Below, in pieces: positions 45,691 to 52,913 of a DNA stretch of 64,000 bases; positions within the stretch are counted from its first letter, which is position 1, and each line of letters starts with the position of its first letter. The stretch lies in the NCBI GenBank assembly GCA_012103475.1, contig WLWS01000001.1:558001-622000 (forward strand), read 5' to 3'. The notes beneath the pieces were generated by a model that did not search any database, was not told where the DNA came from, and worked only from the letters and a program-made list of their open reading frames with translations. The translations under genes were made by a program, and so were the position numbers. This DNA comes from Gammaproteobacteria bacterium (lineage in GTDB: Bacteria; Pseudomonadota; Gammaproteobacteria; Eutrophobiales; Eutrophobiaceae).

Positions 45691-46962
45691 CTAAATCACA
45701 AAACGAATATAGAGATAGCACAGGGCAAAAAGCGTCAACACGACGATGCTGACAATACTAAAGCGTAAAAAGTTTTTTGTCGCTTGATAGTCCGAAGGAA
45801 TTTCATTAGCTGTTATACATCGATGATTGAGGTAAGCCAGTATGGGTGCTGATACGAAGGCAACGGTGGCGCCGAAATCGATAATGTGCGTGAACGAGTC
45901 GAGAAAGAAGCTGCCCAGTAGTAATGGCCCGGTTACAAATAGACAAATTGCGATGATGTACCATTTGTTATCACTTCTGGCGTAATGCAAATCGCTATGT
46001 GACTCTGTCGCAGTCAAGCGATCAATGACAACTGCGAAACTCCTCGGTACGGCATCGAGACCCACAAGTAGTGATGAATACAAAACTGCGAATGTACCTG
46101 CAACGATGACCGGTTTGGTCCAGTCTCCCAGAACATCGGTATACAAATTAATAAATTGTGCAGTAAAGGCAGCGGCGCTATTTTCAACGACAATACCACG
46201 ACTGTGCATTAAGCCAGCTCCAAGCAGCAGAAAACATATAGCCAGAGTTCCGCAGCCGGCATAGCCGATAATAAAATCCTTGTTTACCTCTTCTTTACTA
46301 AAAGAATGCCCGGCCGCTTCTGCTTTGGCACAGGTCCAGAGTGATTGCCAAACAGAGGCATCCATTGGCGAGGGCATCAAACCGACCAGAGCCGCAATAA
46401 AAAGTAATTCTGTGAGTGTTAGTTCACTAATCGATCCTAATGAAGTTCCACTCCATTTGATGTCCGGGATAACCAGAATCGCAGCAAGCACCGTGGTTAA
46501 AGAAATAATCACGACCAATACTTTTGTTATCCGTTCCAGCCACTGATACTGCCCGACAATTAAAATTACTGCGGTTATCGCCAGAATGGTACTGCCAAGC
46601 GCGGCGGTATTCATACTCAGACCAAGAGTTGTCTTCAGTAATCCCGCTGCCAGCAGCGTTATTCCAGAGATAGCAAAGAAACTAACCACACAGGAGGTCA
46701 AGGCGAAATAGAGCAAGGCCCATTTTCCCTGACGACGATAACCTTCCAGTAGACTTTGCCCGGTCGCTGCGGCGTAAGTTGAACCGATTTTAATCGCAGG
46801 GTATTTAAAAACATTAGCTAATACGACAACCAGTAGTAGCGCCAGTCCATACATGGCACCGGCGCGGGTTGATTGCACCAGATGAGATAGACCTACGGAA
46901 GTAGCAGCGAACAACAAGCCCGGCCCCAACGAGCTCATGTTAATAAATTTAGCTGTTCGCAT
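45691..46962 (-). CDS. Nramp-like transporter lacking the DPGN metal motif
   Basis: The 423-residue protein has about 11 spans and the Nramp-like start GPGLLFAATSVGLSHLVQSTRAG. In true Nramp transporters helix 1 carries DPGN, whose Asp and Asn bind the metal; here the place reads SVGLSH. Helix 6, normally with MPH, reads MPSPMDASVW. It is therefore a divergent member, and transport of transition metals should not be assumed. It is 9 bp after a class II aldolase gene and probably cotranscribed, so a substrate linked to that enzyme is possible. Confidence 0.8.
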   Translation of the reverse strand: MRTAKFINMSSLGPGLLFAATSVGLSHLVQSTRAGAMYGLALLLVVVLANVFKYPAIKIGSTYAAATGQSLLEGYRRQGKWALLYFALTSCVVSFFAISGITLLAAGLLKTTLGLSMNTAALGSTILAITAVILIVGQYQWLERITKVLVVIISLTTVLAAILVIPDIKWSGTSLGSISELTLTELLFIAALVGLMPSPMDASVWQSLWTCAKAEAAGHSFSKEEVNKDFIIGYAGCGTLAICFLLLGAGLMHSRGIVVENSAAAFTAQFINLYTDVLGDWTKPVIVAGTFAVLYSSLLVGLDAVPRSFAVVIDRLTATESHSDLHYARSDNKWYIIAICLFVTGPLLLGSFFLDSFTHIIDFGATVAFVSAPILAYLNHRCITANEIPSDYQATKNFLRFSIVSIVVLTLFALCYLYIRFVI

Positions 46963-46971
46963 TATCTGAAT

Positions 46972-47778
46972 TTATGAAATTCTTTTTAATTCATTGTGTT
47001 GTTTAAAAATCATTCTACCCCAGGCATCAACCGTGGCTTGAACAACCATATCCTGCAGTAGAAAATCTCGCGCCTGCACGGCCAATGCCGGATCAATCTC
47101 CTTTATGTCTCCTGCGGCCTGAGCCGTCATTTGCAGACGGGCAGCGTTCTCCAATGTGATTGCCAGATACAGCGCTTCTGACAACGATCTACCTGTAGCA
47201 ATAATGCCATGATGGCCAAGCAAAGCTGTCTTGTTGGTTTTACCCAGAGCCCCGGCGATAAGCTCACCTTCACTGTTACCCACTGGTACTCCCGGCCAGT
47301 CTGCCACAAAAGCACACTGCCCAAAGATCGGCATTGCATCCATATGGGCAACTACCAGCTCCTCTTCTAACATAGATAGTGCCGATGCATAGGGGGGATG
47401 AGTGTGAATTATTGCCCTGATGTCGGGACGATTCTCATAGATCCAGAGATGAAAGCGTACAGCCGGATTCGGCATTGAGTTGCCTTCCACAACATCCATT
47501 TGCCTGTCAAAACGGATCAAATCTGCGTATTCAACTTCTGCAAAATTTTTCATCAAATCGCTGGTCCAGAATGAATCTCCCTGTTCAGCCCGAGCCGTAA
47601 TTTGTCCGGCCAGAAAAGGAGAATGCCCATCCTCTGCTAATTTTCTGGTCGCAATAATCATCAGCTCAGCCAGAGCAAAATTTTCCCGCATGGCATGTTT
47701 TTTTAGATCATTACTAACCTGTTGATGAATATCTGCATCACTTTCGTTACTAAATGAATCTGAGGTTTCTATTGACAT
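46972..47778 (-). CDS. Class II aldolase/adducin family protein
   Basis: The 268-residue protein has the zinc-binding HTHPPY and LGHHGIIATG motifs and the Glu-containing NPAVRFHLWIY segment of fuculose-phosphate aldolase-type enzymes. In bacteria such proteins act as aldolases or decarboxylases on sugar phosphates and related hydroxyacids. The N-terminal 20 residues are an extra Ser/Asp-rich tail. The Nramp-like transporter follows at once, so the pair may take up and process one substrate. Confidence 0.85.
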   Translation of the reverse strand: MSIETSDSFSNESDADIHQQVSNDLKKHAMRENFALAELMIIATRKLAEDGHSPFLAGQITARAEQGDSFWTSDLMKNFAEVEYADLIRFDRQMDVVEGNSMPNPAVRFHLWIYENRPDIRAIIHTHPPYASALSMLEEELVVAHMDAMPIFGQCAFVADWPGVPVGNSEGELIAGALGKTNKTALLGHHGIIATGRSLSEALYLAITLENAARLQMTAQAAGDIKEIDPALAVQARDFLLQDMVVQATVDAWGRMIFKQHNELKRIS

Positions 47779-47969: not shown

Positions 47970-49682
47970 TTGGTAGAACCAAATCAAAACCCTTTAGGAG
48001 AGAGTAAAAACCTTAGCTTCGGCGATATTCTCAAAATTATGTATTCAATACTGTCAGCTGAAAGACAGTATTATCTGCTCGCAATTATCTATGGTGTTGG
48101 AATCAGCCTACTGTCTCTGGCAACGCCGATTTCGGTGCAAATGCTGGTCAACACCGTAGCCAATACGGGCCTTAAAACACCACTGATTGTTTTATCTATC
48201 ACGCTATTTCTGCTACTCATTTTTGCTTCTCTGGTGGTCGCGCTTCGAATTCATCTTATGGACATGTTCTCTCGTCGCTTCTATGCGCGCATGGTCTCGG
48301 AAATCGCCCTGAGAACCATTTATGCCGTTGATCCGTATTTTGATAATGCCGGCAAAACCGCCCTGTTTAATCGCTATTTCGATATCATTATTGTGCAGAA
48401 GATGCTCCCTACTATAATAGTCGGTGGCTTTACCGTTATTTTGCAGGCCATAGTTGGCTTCGTTGTGGTTTCTCTCTATCACCCCTACTTCCTCATATTT
48501 AATATTTCTATCCTCTTGTTACTTTGGCTGGTATGGGTGCTGTGGGGAAGACGTGCCGTGTTAAGTGCTGTGCAGCTATCTCATAACAAACACGCAACTG
48601 CTGCCTGGCTTGAAGAAATTGGCAGCTCCGACGGCTTTTATCGTTCTGAATATCAAATCGAATCCGCTCTGAAAAAAACCGATAGCTTTACAGCTAATTA
48701 TATCGAAGAGCACATCAAGCATTTTCGCCAGTATTTCAGTCAGACACTGTGCTTCCTTTTCATTTATGCATCCGGCAGCGCCATTCTTCTGGGTCTTGGT
48801 GGCTGGCTGGTGATGCAGGGCCAACTCAATCTTGGCCAACTTGTCGCTGCCGAACTGGTTCTTTCAGTGGTTTTTTACGGGATTTCACAATTCGGTACCT
48901 ATCTCGTTTATTTTTACGATTTATGTGGTGCGATCGACGAACTGAATAATTTTCTTTTAATTGAATATGAAGACTCTCCTGTGGCGACCTCACGCATTGA
49001 AGGCGACGCATCATTAAAATTTGTTAATGCAAGTGGTTCTTTCGCCAAGAACAAACTAACTCTTAACTTTGAGGTTCCCAGTAAGGCCAGAGTTCTGGTT
49101 AGCGATAAACAGTACAACGTCAAGCAATTGCTAACGACTTTTTTGCAGGGTCAGCAAGTGCCACAATCCGGTTTTTTTATGATTGGCGGTGTCGAAGCCA
49201 GATCCCTGCCTCTGGTTAGCCTGCGTAAAGAGATAAGGGTGATCATTCAACCCAGAACCGTTTCCGTGACTATTCGTGAATATCTGGACTTGCAATCTGA
49301 CGCTACACAAAAGGAAAATTTACTGGATGTTATTGCCATTACCGGACTCGAATCCGTCATCTCTCAACTGGAACATGGTATCGACACGCGTATCACTGAA
49401 AGTGGCTGGCCGCTTTCGGTAAGTGAGATTGCACAACTTAAGCTGGCCTCGGCTATATTGGCAAAACCCAGAGTGCTGGTACTTGGAGAAATGTTTGATA
49501 TCGTGCAGGAAACCATACTCATTAATGCTTTTGAAAAGATGCGCACAGAGTCCTCAACCTCGATTTTGCATTTTTCCAATCACCACTGGGATCTTGGGTA
49601 TACACACGAGCTACAACTAGACGCTGACAGACAAATTCTGACAAGCCTCGATTCCAGGCCTTCATCGGGTTCAACTAGCTAG
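47970..49682 (+). CDS. ABC exporter-like protein with degenerate ATPase domain
   Basis: The 570-residue protein has six membrane spans (about 35-325) of an ABC type I exporter, then an ABC-like domain. Its ATPase motifs are eroded. Where Walker A GxxGxGKS/T belongs, the protein reads ARVLVSDKQYNVKQ (about 373-386). The signature is LSVSEIAQL (482-490) instead of LSGGQ. Walker B ends VLVLGE with the Asp replaced by Gly506 while Glu507 stays. The frame is open throughout, so this is not recent decay. It starts with TTG at 47970 and precedes hlyD- and tolC-like genes. ATP hydrolysis by this chain alone is unlikely. Confidence 0.85.
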   Translation: MVEPNQNPLGESKNLSFGDILKIMYSILSAERQYYLLAIIYGVGISLLSLATPISVQMLVNTVANTGLKTPLIVLSITLFLLLIFASLVVALRIHLMDMFSRRFYARMVSEIALRTIYAVDPYFDNAGKTALFNRYFDIIIVQKMLPTIIVGGFTVILQAIVGFVVVSLYHPYFLIFNISILLLLWLVWVLWGRRAVLSAVQLSHNKHATAAWLEEIGSSDGFYRSEYQIESALKKTDSFTANYIEEHIKHFRQYFSQTLCFLFIYASGSAILLGLGGWLVMQGQLNLGQLVAAELVLSVVFYGISQFGTYLVYFYDLCGAIDELNNFLLIEYEDSPVATSRIEGDASLKFVNASGSFAKNKLTLNFEVPSKARVLVSDKQYNVKQLLTTFLQGQQVPQSGFFMIGGVEARSLPLVSLRKEIRVIIQPRTVSVTIREYLDLQSDATQKENLLDVIAITGLESVISQLEHGIDTRITESGWPLSVSEIAQLKLASAILAKPRVLVLGEMFDIVQETILINAFEKMRTESSTSILHFSNHHWDLGYTHELQLDADRQILTSLDSRPSSGSTS

Positions 49683-49686
49683 AATT

Positions 49687-50712
49687 ATGCTTCACGAAAG
49701 ACACCAAATTCACTTTGTAGCACTTGCCGGCGTGCAACTTCCAAGGCCAATGCGCACTATCGCTTTTCTGATCATTATCATGAGTACCGCAGTGGCGGTA
49801 TTCCTCTCGGTTACTCCCTGGGTACAGACTTCACCCGGGGTCGGATCGGTTACCGCACTTAACCCGGATGATCTCGCCCAGGAAATTAACGCTTTCGTCA
49901 CAGGTCGCATTCAGAAATGGTACATTCGCGATGGCGATCACGTGAAAGTGAACGATCCGATCGCCAAGATCGTCGACAATGACCCACAATTAATTGAACG
50001 CCTCCAGGCCGAACGCAGACAAGTGAGAGCCCAATTGTCCGCCGCAGAAGCGGTTGCAGCGACTGCGAGGATAGATGCGGAGCGCACTGAGGAACTCTTT
50101 AGTGAAGAACTGGCTGCCAGACGAGATTACGAACAGGCAAAAATAAAACTGCAGGAACGTCTGGCCGCAGTCGCCGAAGCTGCCGCCAAATTGACACGCG
50201 CCGATGTTAATCTGTCTCGTCAGTCTGTACAGATCGTTCGCGCGCCACGCGATGGCATTATCCTACGGGTCAATGCCGGCGATACCTCTACATTTGTCTC
50301 CGTTGGTGACAGTATCGCCACATTCGTTCCTGATAATGTTGAACGTGTGGCGGAAATGTTTATCGATGGCCGCGATGTTTCTCTGGTGCGTAAAGGCGAT
50401 AAGGTGCGTCTACAGTTTGAAGGCTGGCCGGTTGTCCAGTTCAGCGGCTGGCCATCTGTTGCAATCGGTACTTTTGGTGGAATTGTTGTTGCCGTAGATC
50501 CTTCTGCACAAACAAACGGACGCTTCAGGGTGCTCGTCAAAGAGAATCCAAATGACCTCAACCCATGGCCAGATAATGACTACGTACGTTTTGGATCGAA
50601 AGTTCGTGGCTGGATTCAGCTTGAAAAAGTGATTGTAGGTTATGAGTTATGGCGACTGTTTAATAACTTCCCACCGGACTTTCGAACCAGAGTTGACGGT
50701 TCAGAACAATAA
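49687..50712 (+). CDS. HlyD-type periplasmic adaptor
   Basis: The 341-residue protein has one N-terminal membrane span (about 24-45) and a lipoyl-like half, FVTGRIQKWYIRDGDHVKVNDPIAKIVDND. A coiled coil follows (about 105-170), then the second half with APRDGIILRVNAGDTSTFV. It is a membrane fusion protein for a type-I-secretion or ABC-export machine. It starts 4 bp after the degenerate ABC gene and ends 3 bp before the TolC gene, so the three form one unit. Confidence 0.9.
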   Translation: MLHERHQIHFVALAGVQLPRPMRTIAFLIIIMSTAVAVFLSVTPWVQTSPGVGSVTALNPDDLAQEINAFVTGRIQKWYIRDGDHVKVNDPIAKIVDNDPQLIERLQAERRQVRAQLSAAEAVAATARIDAERTEELFSEELAARRDYEQAKIKLQERLAAVAEAAAKLTRADVNLSRQSVQIVRAPRDGIILRVNAGDTSTFVSVGDSIATFVPDNVERVAEMFIDGRDVSLVRKGDKVRLQFEGWPVVQFSGWPSVAIGTFGGIVVAVDPSAQTNGRFRVLVKENPNDLNPWPDNDYVRFGSKVRGWIQLEKVIVGYELWRLFNNFPPDFRTRVDGSEQ

Positions 50713-50715
50713 CTG

Positions 50716-52173
50716 ATGAAAGTCGTAGTAGCACTGCTTCTTTTCTCCCTCACACTGGTCTGCGTGGCTGCTGAGAGCAATCACCCGCCTGCTGGAAAGA
50801 ATAAACTCTCGGCTGAAGACGTTCTGAACTCGGCAGCAAGACATTATCCGAAAATACTGGAAAGTATTGCTGAGTTTCGTGCGGCTGAAGCGAAAACCCT
50901 GAGTGCCGAGGGGGCTTTCGATTTGACTTTCGATATAGACAGTTACAATTATGCGGAAGGCTTCTACGATGGCCGCAGTGTTGAAGCGACTGCATCCCGC
51001 TATTTGAACGCCCGGGGTGGCACCCGCGTTTATGGTGGTTACAAGCTTTCCAATGGCTCCTTCCCAGTCTATGAAGATGAACGATTTACCAATACCGGCG
51101 GGCAGCTTAACCTCGGCGTTCTTTTCTCACTGCTCAGAGATCGAGATATCGATCCGCGACGTTTCAGAGTATCCGATGCAGGTCTGGCCGCTCAACAAGC
51201 GAAATTTGACGTGCTGCTAACAAAACTTGGTATTGCGCAAAAAGCCATGGTCGCATACTGGCGCTGGGTTGCGCTCGGGCAAAAAAAACAGGTTTACAAT
51301 AATTTACTATCTATCGCTGAGAAACGGGACGTTGGTCTGGGCAAAGAAGTAAAAGAAGGAGCCCGGGCCGAAATAGTCTTAACCGAGAGCAGACAGAACA
51401 TTACACAGCGAAAATCACTGCTGGCCAGAGCTGAACGGGATTTTGCTGTTGCCGCTAATGAACTTGGCATGTTTTATCGGGACGCCTCGGGAAGCCCTGT
51501 TTTTGTTGGGCCGGAAAACCTGCCAGATTATCGACCGAAGCCAAGCCCTGCCGACAAAAATTATGAGTTGCAGAACCTGAATCGACTCTATGCTTCCCGC
51601 CCGGAACTGCAAAAATTAAGGAATAGCATTACCCGCGCGATGCGTCGTATTGAGCTGAATCAAAACTCACTGCTACCGCGACTGGATTTAAACCTCGGTG
51701 TTTATCAGCCGCTCGGCTCTCCGGCAGAAGGTGGTCTATCTCGTGATGACAGCGATGTAATAGTCGGCCTGCAGTTCTCGGTACCCCTCGAAAGGAGGGT
51801 AGCCCGCGGCGCATTGGCCGAAACCCGGGCGAAACTCAACGCACTAAGACAGAAAGAAAGGTTAATGGAGGATCAGATACAACTTGAGGTGCGCAACATA
51901 CTTCTGAATCTGAAAACGGCGGAAGAACTGCTTATACTGGCAGGAGATGAAGTAAATCAGGCCAGCGTACTACAAAGAGCTGAAATTCAGCGCTTTCGAA
52001 AAGGGGCAAGTGATTTTTTTCTGGTGAATATCAGAGAGAATACTGCTGCCGAAGCTGAGGTGAGATTCTATCTGGCGGGCTTACAACGAGAAATTGCACA
52101 AGTTAATTTCGATGCTGCCACGGCAAACCTGGAAAAACTCGGGATCAGTGAAGACATACTTAATAATTATTGA
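50716..52173 (+). CDS. TolC-family outer-membrane channel
   Basis: The 485-residue precursor has a signal peptide to about 20 and the two OEP repeats (QKAMVAYWRWVALGQKKQVYN region and NSLLPRLDLNLGVYQPLGSP region). The long helices are rich in Ala, Glu and Arg. It would form the outer-membrane exit duct for the adaptor and ABC-like protein encoded just upstream. It is convergent with the ompW pseudogene across 57 bp. Confidence 0.9.
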   Translation: MKVVVALLLFSLTLVCVAAESNHPPAGKNKLSAEDVLNSAARHYPKILESIAEFRAAEAKTLSAEGAFDLTFDIDSYNYAEGFYDGRSVEATASRYLNARGGTRVYGGYKLSNGSFPVYEDERFTNTGGQLNLGVLFSLLRDRDIDPRRFRVSDAGLAAQQAKFDVLLTKLGIAQKAMVAYWRWVALGQKKQVYNNLLSIAEKRDVGLGKEVKEGARAEIVLTESRQNITQRKSLLARAERDFAVAANELGMFYRDASGSPVFVGPENLPDYRPKPSPADKNYELQNLNRLYASRPELQKLRNSITRAMRRIELNQNSLLPRLDLNLGVYQPLGSPAEGGLSRDDSDVIVGLQFSVPLERRVARGALAETRAKLNALRQKERLMEDQIQLEVRNILLNLKTAEELLILAGDEVNQASVLQRAEIQRFRKGASDFFLVNIRENTAAEAEVRFYLAGLQREIAQVNFDAATANLEKLGISEDILNNY

Positions 52174-52230
52174 TACTGAAAATTGCCTAGCTGTTGCTTT
52201 GAACATGGACACATCAATAATTTGGTTACT

Positions 52231-52913
52231 TTAAAATCTGTAGGCAACTCCGATTCCAAACACCCATGGATCGATATCAACGTCAGCATCATTGCGTAAT
52301 GCGCCTCTGTCAATTGAGACCTTCGTATCAATAAACATCTTTTTCACTTCCATATTCAGTGACCAGTGTTCAGTGATACCGTAGTCAAAGCCCGCCTGTA
52401 GTGCATAGCCCAGAGTGTCTTTATAATCGACTCTATCCACTGCCGCTCCTTCCTCATTAAAAAATGCGTATAGTTAATACCCGCACCAAGATAGGGGCGA
52501 AAGCCCTTGTTTTCCTGCGCAAAATGATACTGCATCATCAGTGTCGGAGTTAATGCCCAGACATTGCCCAGATCGAGTTGCCCTGCTGCGGTGTCTGTAG
52601 CAGTAACATCAAATGGTGGGGCGGCCAGTGACAATTCCAGACCAAAGTTTTCGTTCAGAAAATAAGTAAGGTCCAGTTCCGGTGCATACTGCTCATCAAC
52701 ATCGGCCGAACCACCGATTGAGCTGATATTTGCCGAGTCTTCAGGTTCATAGAGCAGAGCACGTACTCGTATAATCCAGCGCTCCTTGTCAGCAAAATCA
52801 AATAGAGCATCTGATTTGAAATAAGGCGTATGTGCTGTCTCCCTTGCATAGCCGGGGTTCATTGCTGTTAACACCGCGAGCAAACCGATACTCAAAACCG
52901 TCCTAATCATCAT
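52231..52913 (-). pseudogene. ompW: ompW-family outer-membrane protein gene with a homopolymer frameshift
   Basis: Frame one runs from 52913 with a signal peptide (MMIRTVLSIGLLAVLTAMNPGYA) through OmpW-type strands and FRPYLGAGINYTHFL. It then turns into non-family sequence to 52356. The missing C-terminus is in another frame to 52231: VDYKDTLGYALQAGFDYGITEHW and finally VDIDPWVFGIGVAYRF. The frames meet at a run of six A at 52459-52464 (T on the coding strand). Seven would restore one protein, reading THFFNEEGAAVD across the junction. So one base is missing here, either a true mutation, a phase-variable state or a sequencing error. AAAGGAG lies before the ATG. Confidence 0.85.

Follow-up and report, generated by a model that had tools for sequence, protein, structure and literature searches.

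A tripartite efflux-type operon whose only ABC protein has lost its ATPase motifs, and a possible ATP-independent mode of export

ATP-binding cassette (ABC) exporters are defined by their use of ATP. Degenerate nucleotide sites are already known in heterodimeric ABC exporters (PMC7756269; PMC8277102). Each of the heterodimers TmrAB, TM287/288, and BmrCD has one degenerate site; the gene for the active partner sits next to that of the degenerate chain, which itself still contributes to ATP binding. The case for secondary transport by the membrane domains of ABC exporters has so far come mostly from engineered forms of LmrA and MsbA: the MsbA membrane domain (MsbA-MD) without its nucleotide-binding domain (NBD) performs proton-coupled drug transport (PMC4979069), and the LmrA membrane domain (LmrA-MD) is a secondary-active translocator in which Glu314 in transmembrane helix 6 (TM6) is needed for delta-pH coupling (PMC2704374). 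Here, we analyze a 64,000-nucleotide stretch of a Gammaproteobacteria genome (assembly GCA_012103475.1, contig WLWS01000001.1, positions 558,001 to 622,000; hereafter, the window), in which three plus-strand genes at 47970–52173 encode an ABC half-exporter-like protein, a membrane-fusion adaptor, and a TolC-type outer-membrane channel, separated by gaps of 4 and 3 bp (Table 1). An earlier note, made from the sequence alone, had described these genes as a type-I-secretion-like operon whose ABC protein has lost its ATPase motifs; its coordinates, gaps, and gene lengths are all correct. We came across no published tripartite operon with a fully degenerate sole ABC protein in the open-access literature, subscription papers being outside our coverage.

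In an alignment with the HlyB encoded in this genome, the ABC protein has SDKQYNVKQ at the Walker A position, LSVSE at the signature, and Gly506 at the Walker B aspartate, as previously read. The Walker A stretch contains no P-loop glycine, no glutamine aligns with that of the Q-loop, and no P-loop motif occurs in any other segment of the chain, where the earlier note had allowed for an intact nucleotide site. By chance, a lysine (K385 in the window protein) occupies the Walker A lysine column here and in the homolog L031, which is not the case in L051 and most other members; E507 is retained in the window protein and its two closest homologs. The Pfam ABC_tran profile scores 16.5 bits, under its cut-off of 25, whereas ABC_membrane (PF00664) scores 30.9 bits, over its cut-off of 28. 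By descent, therefore, the protein is a type-IV ABC half-exporter, with an ABC_membrane domain and a half-exporter fold; by its functional motifs it is not. We strongly infer that its NBD is inactive.

Motif loss extends to the whole family. The closest homologs of the ABC protein are 77 (L031), 66 (L051), and 49 (L039) per cent identical, homologs of 40–50 per cent identity occur in other classes of Proteobacteria (L066, L067, L069–L071), and the most divergent ones (L046–L050) are 20–27 per cent identical; close homologs across this range of 20–77 per cent are found in Gamma- and Alphaproteobacteria. Walker A, the signature, the Walker B Asp-Glu pair, and the H-loop are missing from every one of the 21 sequences in the family alignment. 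Homologs are also carried on sphingomonad plasmids, among them pNL2 of Novosphingobium aromaticivorans, and on Bacteroidota plasmids, where the relative L159 is likewise degenerate. In N. aromaticivorans DSM 12444, the three genes are SARO_RS19820–19810. The distribution is patchy, with carriers making up 14 of the 369 genomes sampled in the class (E <= 1e-25), 11 of 398 in the phylum (profile search, E <= 1e-50), and 3 of 53 in the order. Such genes are labeled 'ABC transporter ATP-binding protein' in databases, which is misleading. A pseudogene, frameshift, or assembly artifact might come to mind because the motifs are unrecognizable at first sight; since the same state recurs in independent genomes and closed public plasmids, and since synonymous change is saturated while non-synonymous change is restrained, we reject this explanation as having a negligible probability. 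Homologs with near-normal Walker motifs, which the earlier note would have taken as a sign of a local sequence error, occur only among distant clade members of the L150 type, and there is therefore no such error.

In a tree of whole proteins, the family, L045, and L072 form one clade (support 100/100) apart from MsbA, HlyB, CydDC, and other exporters. Within the wider clade, NBD decay is graded. L150 (822–2570) and its relatives keep GRSGSGKT, NLSLGE, LILDEA, and a histidine. The L045 branch has kept the P-loop; its signature glycines, Q-loop, and histidine are gone, and the catalytic glutamate is lost in most rows. The L139–L154 branch displays stepwise erosion of the P-loop (GPGGAGKG in L152, GASGSGRG in L154, GAERGS in several others), and in the window's branch all nucleotide motifs are lost. 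P-loop state changes on the membrane-domain tree number three at the fewest, with the branching order among the main lineages weakly supported; the P-loop was thus lost about three times, and its loss tolerated or favored repeatedly, with the pump retained. For the question of whether ABC membrane domains can work as secondary transporters, the clade offers ready test proteins, from the near-canonical L150 through the P-loop-keeping L045 to the window protein. We also note that L150 and L168–L171, with a near-canonical Walker A, LSLGE or ISLGE, and DEA motifs, provide a natural, active-looking control for the family.

Sequence comparisons indicate that the operon is kept under purifying selection. 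Between the window protein and L031, synonymous differences are saturated (proportion pS, 0.76), and the proportion of non-synonymous differences (pN) is 0.09 in the transmembrane domain (TMD) and 0.19 in the NBD; dN/dS, the check that had been suggested, is mostly not computable as a number because synonymous sites are saturated, and selection is seen instead as restrained pN. Together with the conserved operon order, this restraint bears out the suggestion that all three genes are maintained. TMD identity exceeds NBD identity in nine of nine family pairs (from 0.85 versus 0.72 down to 0.42 versus 0.27), whereas in nine canonical ortholog pairs the NBD is equally or better conserved, with a single exception by 0.01. 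All 23 invariant columns of the 21-member alignment fall in the TMD. By these measures, constraint is stronger on the membrane domain than on the NBD, contrary to ordinary exporters. Across a wider alignment of 77 members, Glu295, Gln290, Tyr316, Gly277, and Gly289 are invariant. TM6 (GQLVAAE), Gln159, His171, and Tyr316 are strongly conserved, and the coupling-helix region (Arg135 and its neighbors) is retained.

Structure prediction suggests that, despite the loss of motifs, the protein keeps the entire half-exporter fold, with the pseudo-NBD as part of it. An AlphaFold2 model built on the family alignment (pLDDT 79.8, pTM 0.64) has six long transmembrane helices and an ABC-type NBD, in which the loop at the former P-loop is short, between a strand at 374–379 and a helix at 382–393. 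Its best Foldseek matches are TmrB, HlyB (8dck), Sav1866, and PCAT1, and VIA-align Z scores are about 22–23 against Atm1, TM287/288, and HlyB. The adaptor had been called HlyD-type, a label that does not fit its model (pLDDT 81.4), which has a transmembrane helix at 20–42, a short hairpin (100–139/145–177), and efflux-type domains. Its closest folds are MacA, ZneB, AcrA, MexA, and EmrA, and it scores 55.5 bits against the NCBIfam HlyD family TIGR01843, under the cut-off of 208.65; as modeled, the adaptor resembles the efflux-type MacA, AcrA, and EmrA, and not HlyD.

The description as type I secretion is accordingly doubtful. HlyB/LssB-type exporters of type I secretion systems share with the window protein the half-exporter architecture, the HlyB fold match, and an operon with an adaptor and a TolC-type channel, and the best NCBIfam similarity of the window protein is to LssB (TIGR03375; 98.9 bits versus a cut-off of 693). 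Unlike them, however, it lacks working Walker A, Walker B, and signature motifs, an H-loop, and a C39-like domain, and its adaptor lacks the long coiled hairpin of HlyD. Reading of the neighbors in the window and across homologous loci revealed no evident gene for a secreted protein. The channel is of the TolC type by PF02321 (84 bits) and scores below the cut-off of TIGR01844, which is specific to type I secretion. From the genes alone, the operon has the architecture of a tripartite efflux pump, comprising an inner-membrane transporter, an efflux-type adaptor, and a TolC-type channel. EmrAB-TolC and MacAB-TolC share this plan and have close adaptor folds, but their inner-membrane parts differ from that of the window: EmrB belongs to the major facilitator superfamily, and MacB is a type VII ABC transporter with an active ATPase.

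Table 1. Coordinates of the operon and of features of its ABC protein in the window.
Feature	Position	Strand	Basis
Pseudo-ABC half-exporter, 570 aa	47970..49682	+	Open reading frame, Pfam, fold model, homologs
Transmembrane domain, residues 20–330, six predicted long helices	48027..48959	+	Fold model, family alignment
Glu295 in TM6	48852..48854	+	Glu in 77/77 family members; absent from every canonical exporter compared
Pseudo nucleotide-binding domain, residues 345–560	49002..49649	+	Sub-threshold Pfam, predicted ABC fold
Former Walker A, SDKQYNVKQ, residues 378–386	49101..49127	+	Alignment; predicted loop shortened
Former ABC signature, LSVSE, residues 482–486	49413..49427	+	Alignment
Former Walker B, VLVLGE, residues 502–507, Asp replaced by Gly506	49473..49490	+	Alignment
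Former H-loop position, His replaced by Asn537	49578..49580	+	Alignment
Periplasmic adaptor (membrane-fusion protein), 341 aa	49687..50712	+	Pfam HlyD_3, fold model
TolC-type outer-membrane channel, 485 aa	50716..52173	+	Two OEP stretches, PF02321, 84 bits

That the machine might work without ATP hydrolysis by its ABC chain, as the earlier note suggested, is supported at the sequence level by the family-wide loss of motifs in a maintained operon. We give an even chance to the view that the three gene products form a tripartite efflux pump, with an inner-membrane component that evolved from a type-IV (HlyB/MsbA-like) half-exporter, has ceased to be an ATPase, and acts by ion-gradient secondary transport. 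In such a pump, the ABC protein would form a homodimer, the pseudo-NBD would clamp the coupling helices in a structural or regulatory role, and the membrane domain would join the adaptor and channel and export a small molecule at the expense of an ion gradient, with Glu295 as the foremost candidate for coupling export to that gradient. MsbA-MD and LmrA-MD likewise consist of a type-IV exporter membrane domain without a working NBD, and a TM6 glutamate matters in LmrA; those are engineered truncations with demonstrated ion coupling, whereas the window protein is a natural state that keeps its pseudo-NBD and is known from sequence alone. Several points weigh against an ion-driven pump. MsbA with its NBD present and the P-loop lysine deleted loses most transport in cells (PMC4979069), and an inactive attached NBD can therefore also block transport. 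Glu295 is found in the near-canonical L150 as well; it is thus probably older than the ATPase loss and may serve another purpose. It lies 90 residues before the P-loop lysine column, compared to 74 for LmrA Glu314, and on this spacing we rejected the equivalence of the two residues. Moreover, an energy-free channel or a hidden partner ATPase would look identical in sequence. Because the TM6 glutamate is invariant, but lies on another turn and is present in L150, we regard ion-driven export in itself as having at best an even chance, a passive conduit as doubtful, and a hidden active partner as more doubtful still. We give somewhat less than an even chance to an extension of the ion-driven reading to a widespread family of ABC exporters repeatedly converted to ion-gradient-driven tripartite pumps, with the inherited TM6 carboxylate as coupling residue; if true, this would be a natural family of ABC exporters that abandoned ATP, spread widely across bacteria and patchily carried.

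Each of the competing explanations finds something in the data. A passive or gated conduit or an assembly scaffold, through which a substrate would move by facilitated diffusion or after being handed over, with no energy coupling at the inner membrane, agrees with the loss of the ATPase while adaptor and channel are kept, and L048–L050 are even without the NBD end; the strong conservation of TM6 and of Gln159, His171, and Tyr316 argues instead for a specific transport cycle, and an ungated inner-membrane route would presumably be costly. Alternatively, the protein could be the inactive half of a heterodimer whose active half-exporter, encoded elsewhere, hydrolyzes ATP, as the earlier note envisaged. 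TmrAB, TM287/288, and BmrCD, which also have an inactive NBD inside an intact half-exporter fold, rank among the best structural matches, and the window's genome encodes four further half-exporters (one of HlyB type, MsbA, an MsbA-related TIGR02204 protein, and one further exporter). Known degenerate partners, however, retain most nucleotide-binding elements, whereas the window protein has lost them all, and no second half-exporter gene adjoins the operon in any locus examined; ABC-like matches near some loci were considered as partners and rejected, since their length and context mark them as ATPases of other kinds. The single-contig carrier genome G327 (99 per cent complete) encodes only MsbA, CydD, and CydC as half-exporters, although its family member comes from a divergent branch in which no channel gene adjoins, so that this argument is indirect for the window. 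When the other half-exporters of the window's genome were compared with nine further carrier genomes, none had a reciprocal best match in every one of them. Because G327 has only MsbA and CydDC, and because no half-exporter of the window's genome is matched throughout the ten carriers, a dedicated partner is unlikely, judging by gene content. Least probable among the routes to ATP is a free-standing soluble ABC ATPase that docks on the ABC protein and powers export, which we consider very unlikely: the coupling-helix region is kept and the genome encodes dozens of ABC_tran domains, but the docking site is taken by the fused pseudo-NBD, and across loci the operon has no ATPase gene as a regular neighbor.

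The ABC-adaptor-channel order is kept in nearly all loci, with differing flanks. In L048, L049, and L050, only the ABC and adaptor genes are adjacent, with no adjoining channel gene; these most divergent members lack the NBD end, keep the adaptor, and are followed, in all three cases, by an apparent gatCAB amidotransferase gene block. In L158 (8167–10662), the channel gene is in two pieces around an opposite-strand, transposase-like reading frame, as expected of an insertion that broke it. The commonest neighbor is a LysR regulator, either of NhaR type (L041, L065, and L068, as well as L142, L146, L148, and L153, before a phosphoenolpyruvate [PEP] carboxylase gene) or OxyR-like (L031, L067, L161, and L166). 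In L142 (1158–9581), L146, L148, L153, and L139, the PEP carboxylase gene immediately precedes the operon and has the same orientation; the NhaR-type gene beside it is divergent in the first four, and L139 has no regulator in view. This recurrent synteny may hint at function. Genes for the inorganic carbon pump DabA/DabB adjoin the operon in two unrelated genomes (L047, 4332–8151; L161, 1–3914), and carbonic anhydrase and SulP genes lie near it in L031 (3711–6076). A link to inorganic carbon uptake is not supported, since DabA occurs in 11 of 27 carrier genomes versus 35 of 143 in the class sample (P about 0.1) and the two sets overlap.

In the window itself, the start of the ABC gene is ambiguous between TTG at 47970, favored by L051, and ATG at 48039, favored by L031. 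Scans for promoters and terminators gave no signal above chance. Back to back with the operon, on the minus strand at 45691–47778, lie a class II aldolase gene (NF005484, above cut-off) and, 9 bp after it, an Nramp-family transporter gene; this unusual pair was seen beside the operon at no other locus. Downstream, an OmpW-family gene on the minus strand (52180–52913) is split: its first frame ends at 185 aa and the expected C-terminal part, ending in VFGIGVAYRF, runs on in another frame, which points to a frameshift or a sequence error.

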